From a bacterium (GTDB taxonomy: Bacteria > Patescibacteriota > Minisyncoccia > Phycocordibacterales > JAGLPS01), in the NCBI GenBank assembly GCA_030690305.1, contig JAUYHB010000007.1:1-34581 (forward strand): DNA of 34,581 nucleotides, in the 5' to 3' direction. Shown piece after piece: positions 4,684 to 34,580 of this stretch; positions within the stretch are counted from its first letter, which is position 1, and each line of letters begins with the position of its first letter. The notes under the pieces are model-generated. The model worked only from the letters and a program-made list of their open reading frames with translations. It made no database searches and was not told where the DNA came from. The translations under genes were made by a program, and so were the position numbers.

Positions 4684-4717
4684 AAGCCCTCGACTTTTTT
4701 ACAGTCGGGGGCTTTTT
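4684..4717 (+). terminator. Rho-independent terminator upstream of tsaD
   Basis: A 12-bp stem with one G-U pair (4684-4695 with 4703-4714) and a 7-nt loop is followed by five T residues (4713-4717). It probably ends the HAD transcript. Confidence 0.85.
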
Positions 4718-4751
4718 GCTCTCAATATGGGGAAATGATAAGGTAAAACAA

Positions 4752-5924
4752 ATGCGCATTCTGGGAATCGAAACGAGTTGCGACGAAACGTCGCTTTCAA
4801 TTATTGACGCAACAGGGAATGTAAATAAGCCCCGCTTTAAGGTGCGCGCCTTTTCTATTCTTTCTCAAATGAGCATCCACCAGAAATATGGTGGAGTATT
4901 CCCCCATCTTGCCCAGCGTGAACACCAGAAAAATCTCGTGCCGATGCTCGCGCGCACCCTTGAAGAAGCCGGACTTTCAAAGCCCGCGAAAGATGTTTTC
5001 AAACCCGCCACCGCGCGAAAACTGATAAAAACTCTTGAACGCGAAACGGAATTGCTTTCCAAGTTCCTTTCATATGTGCCGACCGTCGCCCGTCCCGATA
5101 TTGATGCCATTGCTGTCACCTATGGGCCGGGGCTTGAGCCCGCATTGTGGGTCGGCGTCAATTTCGCACAAGCACTTGGGGTTGTGTGGGATATCCCCGT
5201 TGTCCCCGTAAATCACATGGAGGGACATTTGGCTTCCGTTCTTTTTGGTGAGAAAAAAGGGGAGACGGTTCCGGTAAAATTTCCCGTTCTCGCATTACTT
5301 GTTTCGGGCGGACATACCGAACTTATTTTTTCAAAAAAATGGGAAATGTATGAGGTCATCGGGGAAACAGTCGATGACGCCGCCGGTGAAGCGTTTGATA
5401 AAGTAGCGAGAATGCTTGAACTTCCCTATCCGGGCGGACCGCAAATTTCCCAGCTTGCCGAGGCACATAGAAAGGCCGTTGATGTCTCGCAAGAGTACAA
5501 ACTCCCCCGCCCCATGAAAAACTCGGGCAATCTTAATTTTTCATTCGCGGGATTAAAAACAGCTGTTCTATACAAAATCAAAGGCCTTAAAATCTTGGAT
5601 GCCAATGCACGGCAAACGATAGCCCGGGAATTTGAAGATGCAGTCATTGATGTGTTGATTTCAAAAACAAAAAAAGCCCTTGAAACGTATGCGCCGAAAA
5701 CGCTGATTGTCGGAGGGGGTGTTATTGCAAATACTGCCCTGCGTCGCGCAGTCGGCACACTTGCCAAAACACAAGGAGTGGAACTGCGCATTCCTCAAAT
5801 GCGGCTTACGGGAGACAACGCGCTTATGATTGCCATGGCAGGATTCATCAAAATAAAAAACAAACCGGAAATTCTTAAAAAGAAAGTTACCGTCAAAGCA
5901 TTCGGAAACTTGAGGTTAGGATAA
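4752..5924 (+). CDS. tsaD: tRNA N6-adenosine threonylcarbamoyltransferase TsaD
   Basis: TsaD transfers the threonylcarbamoyl group to A37 of tRNAs that read ANN codons, working with TsaB and TsaE. The 390-residue product starts with MRILGIETSCDETSLS. It has the metal-binding HMEGH (His155 and His159), VSGGHTEL, DDAAGEAFDKVARML, GGGVIANTALR and the C-terminal TGDNALMIA. It is about 50 residues longer than typical TsaD; most of the excess is a Lys/Glu-rich segment at residues 76-116, before the conserved DIDAIAVTYGPGL. The ATG at 4752 is chosen because the conserved N-terminus begins there. An earlier in-frame start would lie in the upstream terminator. A bidirectional terminator follows at 6151-6175. 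Confidence 0.96.
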   Translation: MRILGIETSCDETSLSIIDATGNVNKPRFKVRAFSILSQMSIHQKYGGVFPHLAQREHQKNLVPMLARTLEEAGLSKPAKDVFKPATARKLIKTLERETELLSKFLSYVPTVARPDIDAIAVTYGPGLEPALWVGVNFAQALGVVWDIPVVPVNHMEGHLASVLFGEKKGETVPVKFPVLALLVSGGHTELIFSKKWEMYEVIGETVDDAAGEAFDKVARMLELPYPGGPQISQLAEAHRKAVDVSQEYKLPRPMKNSGNLNFSFAGLKTAVLYKIKGLKILDANARQTIAREFEDAVIDVLISKTKKALETYAPKTLIVGGGVIANTALRRAVGTLAKTQGVELRIPQMRLTGDNALMIAMAGFIKIKNKPEILKKKVTVKAFGNLRLG

Positions 5925-5936
5925 CAAAACCTGCTC

Positions 5937-6113
5937 AAATTTACTTTTCAAAAACACGATAAAATCCTGCTGGATTTTTCTCTGCTCCTTACAGGAGCTG
6001 TCCACTCGTTGGATCTTTTCTTCGAAAAGCTCACAATGAGTCTTGCGGAAGCTCCATGTATTCGCTTCCTCACACCTTCCTCATGCTCCGCAAGATTTTT
6101 GAAAAGTAAATTT
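5937..6113 (+). ncRNA. Candidate structured RNA or palindromic element after tsaD
   Basis: Two perfect 18-nt inverted arms (5937-5954 and 6096-6113) enclose four hairpins: 5961-5967 with 5972-5978, 5984-5989 with 5993-5998, 6004-6011 with 6034-6041 (containing an inner CTTTTC/GAAAAG stem), and 6041-6049 with 6087-6095. The last hairpin abuts the closing arm. One pair in the third hairpin is G-U on the plus strand but would be C-A on the minus strand, which favours plus-strand RNA. Transcription could come from tsaD read-through, with the 6151-6175 terminator as its 3' end. No known RNA family is recognised. A miniature inverted-repeat element is the alternative. Confidence 0.5.
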
Positions 6114-6150: not shown

Positions 6151-6175
6151 AAACCCGCCTCATCGGCGGGTTTTT
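6151..6175. terminator. Bidirectional terminator between tsaD and the large surface protein gene
   Basis: A 9-bp stem (6151-6159 with 6165-6173) has T-rich runs on both strands: TTTTTCTTT on plus and TTTTGTT on minus. Confidence 0.88.
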
Positions 6176-16832: not shown

Positions 16833-17228
16833 TCAAGGGGTAAAACTATCCTGGATTTCCTTTATCCAGCGCAATATCCAATTTTCCCCACTGACATCTT
16901 CGCTTTTGGGTCTGGTCTTCGATTCAACAATAAGCGCCATCATTTCGCCGTCTTTTGCCACGCTAAACTTTTCCCTGATTTCCTCCTCAACTCCTCTTTG
17001 GGTTGAGAGGCGGTCTAGATTTTCTTTGAGCTCCATTTCCCTGTTTTTGAGAGTCTCCAATTCCCGTTCGGTTTGAACAAGACTTTTGCTGCTTTCAAGG
17101 TATTTGCGATATATGTCAAAAAGACCGTTAAACGAGGCTATTGCGACAATAATAAGGCCAAGGGAAACAAAAAAAGACAAGGGGCGAATTCGTTTTTGGC
17201 GTTTTCTTTTTTGTTCCAAAGAGGGCAT
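16833..17228 (-). CDS. Septum formation initiator family protein (FtsB/DivIC-like)
   Basis: A 131-residue bitopic membrane protein. A basic N-terminal tail (KRKRQKRIR) precedes one transmembrane helix (about residues 18-36), then a coiled coil (about 40-80, SKSLVQTERELETLKNREM) and a family-type REKFSVAKDGEMMALIV segment. FtsB/DivIC proteins form a complex with FtsL and FtsQ/DivIB that activates septal wall synthesis. The ATG at 17228 follows TATAGT by 9 nt. It is divergent from a small ORF at 17263. Confidence 0.85.
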   Translation of the reverse strand: MPSLEQKRKRQKRIRPLSFFVSLGLIIVAIASFNGLFDIYRKYLESSKSLVQTERELETLKNREMELKENLDRLSTQRGVEEEIREKFSVAKDGEMMALIVESKTRPKSEDVSGENWILRWIKEIQDSFTP

Positions 17229-17262
17229 ACAGATGCTACTATAGTACCATTATACGAAAAGT

Positions 17263-30197: not shown

Positions 30198-33100
30198 TTA
30201 ATTGGTGCTTGTGGAAGTTGCGGTTACCGGTGGTTCGGGTTCCGGAAGAGCTTCAACAATTACCTCCCTCACGGCTTCAAGCGCCTGATTTCCTGCCACA
30301 TCGGTAACATTGTACGTTACTTGATAACTGCCCGGTGTATTTGTGTCGACCAGATTTGCCGTAACAATAGAAGCACTAATGTCGCCGTCCACGTCATCGT
30401 TTGCGGTCGCTCCCTCATCTATATATGTATCCCCTTCCGTAACAGTAACCGAACCTGCTCCAATAAGACTAATTATCGGCGCTGTCGTGTCCGTAACTTC
30501 CGGTTCGGGTGTCGCTTCGTCTCCTACAATAACAGTCCGATCGGCTGTTGCAGTGTTTCCGGCATCATCGGTCGCGGTATATGTAATCGTGTGTGTGCCG
30601 GCAACCGATGTGTCGATTGAAACGCTCGTGGTAATTACACCATTAAGGTATATATATGTAGTTGTGTTTTCGTCCTGGTCATCGGTAATTACCGCTCCAA
30701 GGTCGGCATATGAGGAGCCCACGGCTATTTCTGCCGGATTATTACCTTGAATCACGATAGTGGGAGGAGTGACGTCGGAGATTCCTTGCCCACCGCTTTC
30801 CGATCCGGTGCCTCCGGATTGATTAGAACCGGATGACCCGTTCTGCGAGGCAGCTGTTCCGGCAAGTAGTCCGTCCAGTTGTTCCTTCGTGACACACGTC
30901 TCTCCATTATCGTCAGAAATACACAGCGTGTCGGTATGAACTTCTTGGGCAAACAATTTGCCGATGCCATTTGCTGCATTCGCAAGCCATTGAGTAACAC
31001 GTGAGAACATGTTGGAGAAGAAGCTTTCTGTAAAAGATTGTGATTCCGAAGTTGTGGTGGCTGTTGTTGAGGCAAGGGTTTCAAGATTGAGATTCAATTC
31101 CTGTATCGCCTGAACAGTAAGACCGGTGATTCGCTCAAAGTGGAGGGTAAGCGGCACGCCGTTATAGTCGTAGTCAACAAGTCTCGGGTCGACAAGCTCG
31201 ACTTCTTCGGCAATCAAACCGACAGCCGCCGAATTTTCTCTCGGAGATGTATATTCTTTTTTGTAGTCAAATGACACGACATGGAGTTTTGACAGAGTAT
31301 CTAGCGCTTCTCCTGTTTCTAGAGTCACAACATTTTCCTTGAATCGTATTGAGGAAGGCGTACATGTACCTCCACCCGCATCGGTTATGTCGTCACCCGA
31401 CGTGATACATACCGCATTTCCCGTTCCGGACGAGGTAAGGCCATCGAAAGAAACCGTTCCGGAAACAGAAAGTGTGCGCCACGGGCTAGAAGTTCCGATA
31501 CCAAAGACAGCAGGACCTCTCGGGTCAAGAGAGAGTGCGGTTGATGTTGCGCTTAATGAATCTGTCGAGGTACCGATACGAAAGACACCGTCTATGTTTG
31601 AGAGCAGAACATGTTTTCTATCAGTTGTGGCGTTACTGTCAGTAAGGGCAAGGTACGGAGTCGATGAAGCAATTTGGAGACCCCAATTTGGTGTTGTCGT
31701 ACCAATACCAACGTTACCACCACCACTAACAGTTAGTTGTGCGGTGTCATTTGTTCCGATTCTTAAATCCGCATTCGCCGACGATATCAAAAATGCCACA
31801 TTAGGATCATCTGAGCCACTTCCGCCAAGTTCAATTCCAAATTCTGCAAAACTGTCGTTAACAACACGGACAGCGGTATATTCCGTGCTGTCTGTGCTTT
31901 GAATTTCAATATCAGCATCTCCGGTTCCTATGATTTGAAGTATTTCCTCCGGTGCCAGTGTGCCAATTCCTACAAAGCCACTCGAATAATCAACCGCAAA
32001 GGTGGAACCATCAACAATGAGCCCCCCCGCAAACGTCGACGTTGCCGTTGTCGACGTCGCATGAAAGTATGGAGCGGCGATTTGTCTCCAGACTTCAAGA
32101 CCACCTGCGAAGGTTGAAGTGCCCGTACTCGTTATTTTTAGAGCCGATGAAGTGGCGGCTGAAACCTGTGAGAAGATGTTGGTGCCGTAGGTAAACTCAA
32201 GTTCGCTTCCTCCACCTCCGCCCGTTGCATCCGTGCCGCAATAGAAATCACCTGACGTGGTTGCTTTAACATCACAATCTGCAGAGGTCATGGTGGAAAC
32301 TTGGAGACCTCCGGAATTAATACGAAGACCCGCAAGTGTTGAAGTTGCAGAAGCATTGAGACGTGTTGTTTCAACTCCAGCGCTAAATGTTGAAGATGCT
32401 GTTGGACTGTTTTGAATGCTAATGGTACCGTCGGTTGAAAAAATTCCACCATCTGAAAGGAAAATTGAGCCTGAGCCTGTCTGAAGGGTGCCTTTTACCC
32501 ACAAGTTTGAAGAAAAAGTGGATGTAGCATTCGCCCCTGTACCCAGCACATCAATGAATCCCTTAAAGGTTGAGGTTGCGGTTGTCGAGGTCGCAGTAAA
32601 GTATTGAGCAACCGCTTCTCCGACAACACTTAATTTTGCATATGGGGAGGTGGTACCAATGCCGACGTTGCCGGCATTGGTAATGGCAAAGAGTGTGGAA
32701 GAGGCGGTATTGGTAACGTTAAATACAGGAGCTGTTGTGGTTGCGCTCCAGACGGTGAGAGTGGCTGATGGAGAAGTTGTTCCAATCCCAACACGCCCAT
32801 TTTGGATTCCCCCGACGCCATCAGATTGGGCATAGACGGTAAGTAACGGGTTTCCATCGATTTGTGCCGTGTAGCTTTCAACGGTACCGGCGGACGCGGA
32901 GGAAGTGACCGGCATATCTATCCATGAAAGTATCCCGGCATCCGTGTCAAAAGAGAGAGCTCCAAGATTTAAGTTTGTAACACTTGTAACACCGCTTGAA
33001 AAATCGTATTGAAGAGCACCGCTACCGACATCAAATCCCCCCGCCAAAGTTGACGTCGCTGTGGTAGAGGTCGCGGTAAAATTTCGTGCAACCACTTCTC

Positions 33101-34580
33101 CAACAACAGAAAGTTTGGCGTATGGAGAGGTCGTGCCGATTCCTATGTTGCCCGCACTTGTAATTGTCATCCGTGTTTGAAGTGTTGTTGACCCTGAAGG
33201 TACCGTTTGAAAAGCCAAGTATGTCGGGAAAGAGGAGGCATCCCATGTTCCTTCGGCCGCAGCCAGAATTCTTGCTCCAGATTCAACTGTGTTCGAGGCA
33301 TCGTATGCTCCGCCGAAACTGACAAATCCCAGCCTGTCATCCAAAACATTGGCCGCACCGTCATCGGAATAAAGATATGCACCCGCTCCACCTCCGGCTC
33401 CACTCGCTTCACTACTGATAACTTCCAATGCGTAACTGTCATTGGTGTATATGCCGAGGCCAGCCGCGGAGGTTCCGTCCCCTATGTCAACCCAGCCGGT
33501 GGCATAAATCGTAAGACGCGATGTAATATCATTTGCTATTGTCCCACTATAACTGGCAATGCTCCCGATATTAAAAGTTGAACCGGCAGCACCAACAGTC
33601 CAGGCGGGACGGGCTGCAGACATCACACCACCGGTATCGTAGTACACGGTAAGAGCGTCTTCATTTTCTATCTGTTGTATAGCTCGGGGACTGGTAGTGC
33701 CGATGCCTATAAACCCTGTATTTTTTATCGCAAGAGCGGCACCGGTGCTACCGTTGAAAGGAGTTGGGCTGATGTAAAAAAGGTCGCCACCAGCATCATC
33801 TCCTGTCCCCGTAACTCCCAATTCAAATTGGTCTTCGGCTCCTTGCTGGAAAACCATATATGAATATCCCGCAGTACTGCCGGCACGAACACGAAGCGAG
33901 GTGTCGGATCCTGATTCGGCGCTTACTCTAAAGACACTGGTGGAAGCAATTTTTGCATCAATAAGGTCGCCGTCATAACCGGTGAGAGCATCCAGTGCAA
34001 TGAGGGGTGATGACGTATCATTGCCGGCAACAGAAAGTTTCGCCCAGGGAGACGTGGTTCCAATACCAACATTTCCCCCTCTATCAAACGTAGCTATAGC
34101 CGAGCTGTTGGAATAGTTGCTGATATTTAATCTTCCGCCACTGAAGGCATTGGCTGAGCCGTCATATTTAAGCGCGATACCATTGGCATCATCGGTTTCC
34201 AAAAGTTCAATTGAAGAACTTGAACCATCCGCTCTTCCGGTCAGTCGCAGAGTTGCCCCCGTACCCGTTACGATATGCAAATTGGCTGAAGGAGAAGTGG
34301 TTCCAATGCCGACTTTGTTTGTAGAATAATCAACCGCAAAGGTGGAACCATCAACAATGAGCCCCCCCGCAAACGTCGACGTTGCCGTTGTCGACGTCGC
34401 ATGAAAGTACGGAGCGGCGATTTGCCTCCAGACTTCCAAACCTCCGGCAAAGGTTGAGGTGCCTGTTGATGTGATTTGCAAAGCGGAAGAGGTGGCGGCT
34501 GATACTTGAGAGAAGATGTTTGTGCCGTAGGTGAATTCAAGGTCTCCGCCACCTCCACCTGTCGCATCCGCCGCACAATC
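30198..34580 (-). CDS. Tail-fibre-like repeat protein with S74 chaperone domain and two Ig-like domains, 5' truncated by window edge
   Basis: The frame is open to the right edge, so the N-terminus and signal peptide are missing; about 1460 residues are visible. Nine copies of a (V/I)GIGT(T/S)SP....L motif, alternating with TSTTATSTFAGG-type segments, mark a phage-tail-fibre-like beta-structured shaft. A Peptidase_S74 intramolecular chaperone domain (nt about 31350-31075) is shown by SSIRFKENV, LSKLHVVSFDYK, AVGLIAEEVELVDPRLV and ITGLTVQAIQEL. Such domains help trimerise the shaft and then cut themselves off before a Ser. Two DUF5011-like domains (nt about 30765-30520 and 30485-30240) follow, which is unusual. 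A long in-frame duplication has a 2340-nt period. Confidence 0.85.
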   Translation of the reverse strand, partial: DCAADATGGGGGDLEFTYGTNIFSQVSAATSSALQITSTGTSTFAGGLEVWRQIAAPYFHATSTTATSTFAGGLIVDGSTFAVDYSTNKVGIGTTSPSANLHIVTGTGATLRLTGRADGSSSSIELLETDDANGIALKYDGSANAFSGGRLNISNYSNSSAIATFDRGGNVGIGTTSPWAKLSVAGNDTSSPLIALDALTGYDGDLIDAKIASTSVFRVSAESGSDTSLRVRAGSTAGYSYMVFQQGAEDQFELGVTGTGDDAGGDLFYISPTPFNGSTGAALAIKNTGFIGIGTTSPRAIQQIENEDALTVYYDTGGVMSAARPAWTVGAAGSTFNIGSIASYSGTIANDITSRLTIYATGWVDIGDGTSAAGLGIYTNDSYALEVISSEASGAGGGAGAYLYSDDGAANVLDDRLGFVSFGGAYDASNTVESGARILAAAEGTWDASSFPTYLAFQTVPSGSTTLQTRMTITSAGNIGIGTTSPYAKLSVVGEVVARNFTATSTTATSTLAGGFDVGSGALQYDFSSGVTSVTNLNLGALSFDTDAGILSWIDMPVTSSASAGTVESYTAQIDGNPLLTVYAQSDGVGGIQNGRVGIGTTSPSATLTVWSATTTAPVFNVTNTASSTLFAITNAGNVGIGTTSPYAKLSVVGEAVAQYFTATSTTATSTFKGFIDVLGTGANATSTFSSNLWVKGTLQTGSGSIFLSDGGIFSTDGTISIQNSPTASSTFSAGVETTRLNASATSTLAGLRINSGGLQVSTMTSADCDVKATTSGDFYCGTDATGGGGGSELEFTYGTNIFSQVSAATSSALKITSTGTSTFAGGLEVWRQIAAPYFHATSTTATSTFAGGLIVDGSTFAVDYSSGFVGIGTLAPEEILQIIGTGDADIEIQSTDSTEYTAVRVVNDSFAEFGIELGGSGSDDPNVAFLISSANADLRIGTNDTAQLTVSGGGNVGIGTTTPNWGLQIASSTPYLALTDSNATTDRKHVLLSNIDGVFRIGTSTDSLSATSTALSLDPRGPAVFGIGTSSPWRTLSVSGTVSFDGLTSSGTGNAVCITSGDDITDAGGGTCTPSSIRFKENVVTLETGEALDTLSKLHVVSFDYKKEYTSPRENSAAVGLIAEEVELVDPRLVDYDYNGVPLTLHFERITGLTVQAIQELNLNLETLASTTATTTSESQSFTESFFSNMFSRVTQWLANAANGIGKLFAQEVHTDTLCISDDNGETCVTKEQLDGLLAGTAASQNGSSGSNQSGGTGSESGGQGISDVTPPTIVIQGNNPAEIAVGSSYADLGAVITDDQDENTTTYIYLNGVITTSVSIDTSVAGTHTITYTATDDAGNTATADRTVIVGDEATPEPEVTDTTAPIISLIGAGSVTVTEGDTYIDEGATANDDVDGDISASIVTANLVDTNTPGSYQVTYNVTDVAGNQALEAVREVIVEALPEPEPPVTATSTSTN
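31984..32069. repeat. Long direct repeat inside the tail-fibre-like gene, copy 1
   Basis: These 86 bases are identical to 34324-34409. Weaker similarity continues to the window edge. The 2340-nt spacing is a whole number of codons (780). Confidence 0.9.
34324..34409. repeat. Long direct repeat inside the tail-fibre-like gene, copy 2
   Basis: Identical to 31984-32069. The flank up to the window edge remains clearly related to 32070-32240. Confidence 0.9.

Follow-up and report, generated by a model that had tools for sequence, protein, structure and literature searches.

What is the 177-nt, multi-branched structured element that follows tsaD at positions 5937-6113 of the window (the whole stretch of DNA analysed here, 34,581 nt of contig JAUYHB010000007.1), and is it a single element at all? 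The earlier note, made from the sequence, had described perfect 18-nt arms enclosing four hairpins with nearly all bases paired, and had proposed an undescribed small RNA, a tsaD 3'-UTR structure or a folded miniature mobile element.

Sequence comparison and folding confirmed the outline of the structure: positions 5937-5954 and 6096-6113 are reverse complements, perfect over 18 nt, and four hairpins lie between them. The plus-strand minimum free energy was -60.6 kcal/mol, against -29.95 +/- 3.8 kcal/mol for dinucleotide shuffles (z = -8.1), and none of 200 shuffles matched it; the minus strand folded at -61.4 kcal/mol (z = -6.3 against dinucleotide shuffles), so that both strands were far more stable than their controls. 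The near-complete pairing was overstated, as the fourth hairpin of the plus-strand fold has a loop of ~32 nt. A search of the own genome (790 kb, 30 contigs) returned 18 matches to the 177-nt element, including a second full-length copy (80%; contig C6, 51041-51213). Most of the other matches covered the outer parts only (query 1-51 plus 137-177, ~90 nt), and the inner part alone was matched once (contig C22, 1257-1353); therefore, the inner part (hereafter A) and the outer part (S) occur independently. S, A and S+A are each present as separate copies within one genome and, judged from these sequences, the 177-nt element is evidently not one repeat element but two, with A nested inside S (Table 1). 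The fourth plus-strand hairpin joins S sequence (CTTGCGGAG) to A sequence (CCGCAAG), bases that belong in the conserved structures to the P2 helix and GCAAGAC linker of A and to the B stem of S. The minus strand is the more informative reading strand of the element.

Table 1. Features of the nested element and its surroundings, in window coordinates.
Feature	Position	Strand	Basis or remark
Composite, S interrupted by A	5937..6113	- (canonical strand)	separate copies of each part in the same genome
Inserted A element, 86 nt, TGAG...TGTAAGG	5987..6072	-	covariance-model match 5984-6072 minus, 70.6 bits
Target triplet AGC of the A site	5984..5986	-	ends P4 3' arm, pairs with element-internal GCT
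S, 5' part: P1 5' arm and start of B stem	6073..6113	-	
S, 3' part: end of B stem, D hairpin, P1 3' arm	5937..5986	-	
P1 arm of S	5937..5954	none	
P1 arm of S	6096..6113	none	perfect complement of 5937-5954
D hairpin of S	5961..5978	-	AAAATCC-AGCA-GGATTTT (minus)
P4 of A	5984..5998	-	GCTCC-T-GTA-A-GGAGC, GTA triloop, 3' end from target
P3 of A	6004..6041	-	variable hairpin, conserved base
P2 of A	6047..6069	-	GGAAGC...GCTTCC
tsaD (mechanical ORF)	4716..5924	+	PF00814, E 2.1e-83
Bidirectional intrinsic-terminator-like hairpin, outside the element	6151..6175	none	sequence: CCCGCC-TCATC-GGCGGG

A small RNA tied to tsaD was rejected, because its parts are dispersed repeats: the element is multi-copy and unrelated to tsaD, and the G-T excess in its inner stems is almost nil. 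The 3'-UTR proposal survived in part, for the outer S, which lies 12 nt past the tsaD stop codon, like its relatives at other gene ends. The evidence, with dispersed copies of both parts in the same genome and strong covariation of all helices of A and S in relatives, favoured the miniature mobile element, but as two elements, one nested in the other. The start of tsaD itself may be a downstream ATG instead. Elsewhere in the window, the G+C content is 50-56% over the first 1.25 kb and ~40% by 2.5-4 kb; an AhpF-like open frame occupies 11-367 (within 1-1500), and the start of the contig could be of foreign or chimeric origin. At 30198-34481 on the minus strand, an open frame of 1427 a.a. with repeated ATSTTATSTF-type blocks resembles a surface or tail-fibre type protein.

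The mobility of A was assessed by joining the flanks of each copy and seeking unoccupied sites in all loci around matches. In 19 of 22 independent filled/empty pairs, the flanks were separated by exactly 3 nt in the unoccupied site, and in 10 of these 19 that triplet reappears as the final three bases of the filled site (permutation mean 1.16; 10 was never reached in 20,000 permutations, p < 5e-5). The nine triplets without an exact match mostly came from paralogous reference sites, several of the "empty" sites being paralogues rather than orthologues; in several inexact cases, the filled site was one base off the reference, with the change improving the P4 pairing. The left flank carries G at -1 in 111 of 116 copies, with mostly purines at -2 and -3. 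Short S copies without A read ..G/AGC/AGAGAAAA, and the A copy in the window sits in S at G^AGC, as these predict. The exact 3-nt junction and the identity of the triplet thus argue for precise insertion of A behind RRG, with nothing duplicated or lost. The simplest reading of the aligned sites is that insertion would occur at G^NNN, with NNN ending the P4 3' arm and pairing with the element-internal P4 5' arm. That A is a precise mobile insertion is well supported by the alignments, which show it with defined ends, flanked by RRG on one side and by three further target bases on the other, and P4 (arm, GTA triloop, arm) as a hairpin closed by the first two or three of these bases. At two loci (L104 and L140), one A lies within the P4 tail of the A before it, a tandem self-insertion.

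On the minus strand, A is an 86-nt sequence with three hairpins, in the order TGAG, P2, GCAAGAC, P3, GTGKACWG and P4 with a GTA triloop. Among 17 equal-length copies, the covariation score was 0.568 versus 0.187 for shuffled and at most 0.14 for slid alignments, 97.6% of the cells were paired, and two-sided changes were present in every helix; the four helices of A all covary. The pairs at P4 positions 1-4 included G-T (3/464) and A-C (2/464) equally rarely, a pattern unlike that of typical RNA families. The P4 tip was always a GTA triloop and the P3 tip often GCGAAGC; in DNA, triloops of the GNA type are highly stable. The rarity of G-T and the triloop tips lean towards DNA hairpins, although they are not proof. 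A general closing stem around A was not apparent, the mean flank complementarity of -12.1 being barely above the -11.1 of random pairings.

We also analysed the outer element. In minus-strand order, S consists of P1, a B hairpin (TGCGGAG..CGAGCA), a D hairpin (AAAATYCAGCAGRATTTTATCGTG) and P1'. It has ~11 copies in the own genome; within the order, 55 of 148 genomes carry it, with up to 26 copies. All of its helices covary (0.433 versus 0.159 shuffled), and 97.8% of the cells were paired in seven copies. The arm sequence is unique to each copy, yet 477 of 510 cells are Watson-Crick pairs; G-T (13/510) exceeds A-C (3/510), which leaves room for RNA-level selection. Of 57 copies, 24 have an antisense gene whose stop codon is no more than 40 nt from the S 3' edge, mostly at 10-18 nt, and 10 have a sense gene that ends at the S 5' edge; the typical distance of S from a stop codon is ~11 nt.

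These features bear on the possibility that A and S are functional structured RNAs, in which S would be a 3'-UTR or terminator module with a protein-bound conserved tip, A a carried-along domain and the covariation a product of selection on the RNA fold. The covariation of every helix, the placement of S just past stop codons, the G-T excess in its arms and the retention of several S sites between two species of one genus are as it would predict. Against it, A keeps a constant junction at unrelated places that include broken tRNA copies, its stems contain few G-T wobbles, the arms, core type and orientation vary at orthologous S sites, and neither A nor S matched Rfam 15 at the gathering score. 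Overall, we regard selection on functional RNAs as unlikely. Hairpin arms copied and corrected by the host give the same signal, so that strong covariation is not by itself a sign of a functional RNA in such genomes.

Orthologous sites in a same-genus pair held the same S, a different S reversed, a different perfect hairpin plus a remnant, or no S. In this pair, S was central in terminator-like palindromes, such as AAAAACATAGCA/S/TGCTATGTTTTT. From these varied contents, S may be a mobile element or a terminator module that evolves fast, or indeed both. A single clean orthologous empty S site was identified; the right arm was already present at it, so S may spread by a route other than that of A; in genome G023, the search for empty S sites encountered no synteny. 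At G013:C7:17474-17605 (in locus L353), where the sister species has S, a perfect palindromic stem of 35 bp encloses a different core.

The arms of S reach at least 6 bp into the host flank in 13 of 34 copies (random, 0.09%). Quasi-palindrome correction would explain such arms, and a broader version of this idea dispenses with an enzyme of the element's own: stems would be written by replication template switching (quasi-palindrome correction or fold-back synthesis), which makes hairpin arms perfect and copies neighbouring sequence into inverted arms, and the tips would spread by occasional strand invasion from one hairpin to another. The process is known (PMC8794818, PMC8604942), and S arms that are near-perfect, unique to each copy and continuous with the flank, as well as the empty site retaining one arm only, are consistent with it. 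However, it leaves unexplained both the arrival of a 100-nt core at new loci and, for A, the fixed ends, the RRG preference and the exact 3-nt junction at unrelated sites. We consider it rather improbable.

A is enriched next to tRNA genes. A tRNA lies within 100 nt of 18 of 97 A copies (8-kb loci), compared with 5.7% of random positions (p ~9e-6), and among the 31 copies within 300 nt of a tRNA, A has the same orientation as the tRNA in 28 and the opposite in 3 (p ~5e-6). Several copies are inside partial tRNA copies adjoining an intact tRNA gene; the insertions include the T-loops of tRNA-Gly (L157) and tRNA-Pro (L018, and L085 reversed) and the variable arm of tRNA-Ser (L150). This sense bias, and a 3'-flank pairing that recalls intron guide pairing, could be attributed to a retroelement that reverse-splices into RNA or is copied by a reverse transcriptase. 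This is very improbable: reverse transcriptase (RVT_1, PF00078) had no match in the own genome and showed no association with A (present in 4 of 15 genomes with A and in 5 of 15 without), Rfam scans gave no match to group I or II introns, and the tRNA-Pro T-loop copy at L085 is antisense. Two of these loci have further inserts. The partial tRNA-Pro at L018 (own genome, C27 ~17000-17250), which carries A in its T-loop, also has an anticodon-loop insert with inverted ends GGTTAAT..ATTAACC that holds an intact tRNA-Pro; at L150, two successive truncated 5' tRNA-Ser copies, each with a different terminal hairpin insert, precede the intact tRNA-Ser gene.

Copies of A with bodies as much as 95% alike have different P4 arms, and 16 of 19 similar same-genome pairs differ at the P4 5' arm; the putative guide thus varies even where the rest of the element is nearly the same.

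The enzyme responsible for A insertion was sought among Y1 transposases, reverse transcriptases, GIY-YIG nucleases and neighbouring ORFs, and none was found. Y1 genes were not significantly commoner in genomes with A (10 of 15) than in those without (5 of 15; p 0.14). Small GIY-YIG nucleases were rejected as candidates: they occur in most genomes tested, and the own genome has a UvrC-sized match only. Among the top 30 clusters of recurrent ORFs beside A, housekeeping ones predominated and no transposase was recognised. A and S could be REP-like repeats, themselves non-autonomous, that were mobilised by a Y1 (HUH) transposase, either TnpA-REP/RAYT or IS200/IS605 in type, since lost from the own genome. 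Such an origin would account for the subterminal hairpins, the lack of target duplication and a junction pairing resembling the guides of IS608 (PMC5934647) and the GTAG guide of REP (PMC8266576), and RAYT-like genes are common in the class, being the reading of most Y1 loci. The own genome and G038, both A-rich, have no Y1 match, however, and A is near only 2 of 40 Y1 loci, which leaves RAYT unsupported as a direct partner of A; in addition, the hairpins lack a preceding GTAG tag, and the variable paired bases are in the right flank, whereas IS608 targets are in the left. We consider a lost Y1 transposase doubtful.

A pattern scan of 84,980 species genomes detected at least 114 A-like stretches, at more than 110 loci, in Parcubacteria-type genomes; the records listed were Kaiser-, Nomura-, Taylor-, Lloyd-, Zambryski-, Yonath- and Vogelbacteria and other Parcubacteria/Patescibacteria, with some named just "bacterium". 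A covariance-model search found A in at least 16 of 238 genomes across the class, with up to 12 copies each, counts that are underestimates since the search scores few candidates. BLAST gave A-like or S-like matches in 22 of 60 same-order relatives. The A and S patterns had no match in IMG/VR, nor did the 177-nt element in phage and plasmid collections. The two families are gene-free and scattered, and seem confined to the ultra-small Paceibacteria. Loci L043, L044 (own genome, C27:15682 and C6:151655), L079 and L090 combine the GTGAG-P2-GCAAG head of A with a different continuation (GGCCGGAG..CGAG..CAGCAG..TATCNGTGAC), and these hairpin modules are probably further families of the same kind.

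Taken together, we consider it probable that S occupies the tsaD 3' end, that A was inserted into the B loop of S, and that A moves as single-stranded DNA recognised through its hairpins. In the mechanism we propose, the hairpins would be the recognition signal and the P4 5' arm a short element-internal "guide" pairing with the target. The attacked strand may be the one that stays single-stranded where hairpin-rich DNA, for instance a tRNA gene, is transcribed; this would account for the sense bias at tRNAs. Resetting of the guide between near-identical copies could come from a choice among variants or from fold-back copying of the target, either of which would be sufficient. The enzyme might act in trans, might have been lost from the own genome, or might be one of the replication or repair activities of the host. 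S, for its part, occupies terminator-like palindromes past stop codons, and its stem arms change rapidly. More tentatively, and on balance improbably, A could represent a new class of guide-bearing mobile DNA hairpin that enters hairpins and tRNA genes through their exposed strand, after RRG, completes its own terminal hairpin with target bases and resets its guide at each jump, driven by some Paceibacteria activity. If confirmed, A would be a minimal DNA-guided insertion system, and its junction rule is exact enough for automatic insertion finding and for a test of the base-pairing guide.

These tiny Paceibacteria genomes thus carry dispersed structured-repeat families that are unlisted in Rfam, and no published description of A or S was found in the literature searched, which excluded subscription papers and preprints; the precise base-level rule of A fits no element described there. 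A DDE MITE with conserved inverted ends was rejected because the S arms differ in every copy; A has neither terminal inverted repeats nor a duplication. Quasi-palindrome template switching perfects inverted arms and yields compensatory changes without selection (PMC8794818), but it is a mutation process rather than a dispersed element and does not produce the fixed ends of A. Mitochondrial double-hairpin or repetitive hairpin-forming elements of fungi, sponges and cryptophytes are tiny, repetitive, seemingly mobile and geneless (PMC2800124, PMC5910586). In this they resemble A and S, but they belong to organelle genomes. We know of no guide-paired junction in them. REP/REPIN sequences with TnpA-REP (RAYT) are short, intergenic, multi-copy, non-coding hairpins in mosaic arrays, thought to be moved in trans (PMC3116915, PMC8266576). 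A and S are likewise multi-copy, non-coding extragenic palindromes, but A is larger, with three hairpins, an RRG^NNN junction and target bases closing one hairpin, its genome lacks RAYT (PF01797), and in place of a GTAG-type tag 5' of the palindrome it has TGAG (TGAA in some copies) left of P2. The IS200/IS605 family, exemplified by IS608 and its single-strand transposition, has hairpin ends and inserts precisely without target duplication, its internal guide bases pairing with the target (PMC5934647). A shares the precise, duplication-free insertion (19 of 22 filled/empty pairs) but carries no tnpA or tnpB, and its guides differ between sister copies. The pairing of its putative guide with the target is significant, but differently placed: the fixed RRG of A is to the left and the variable paired bases are in the right flank, whereas the targets of IS608 lie in the left flank.
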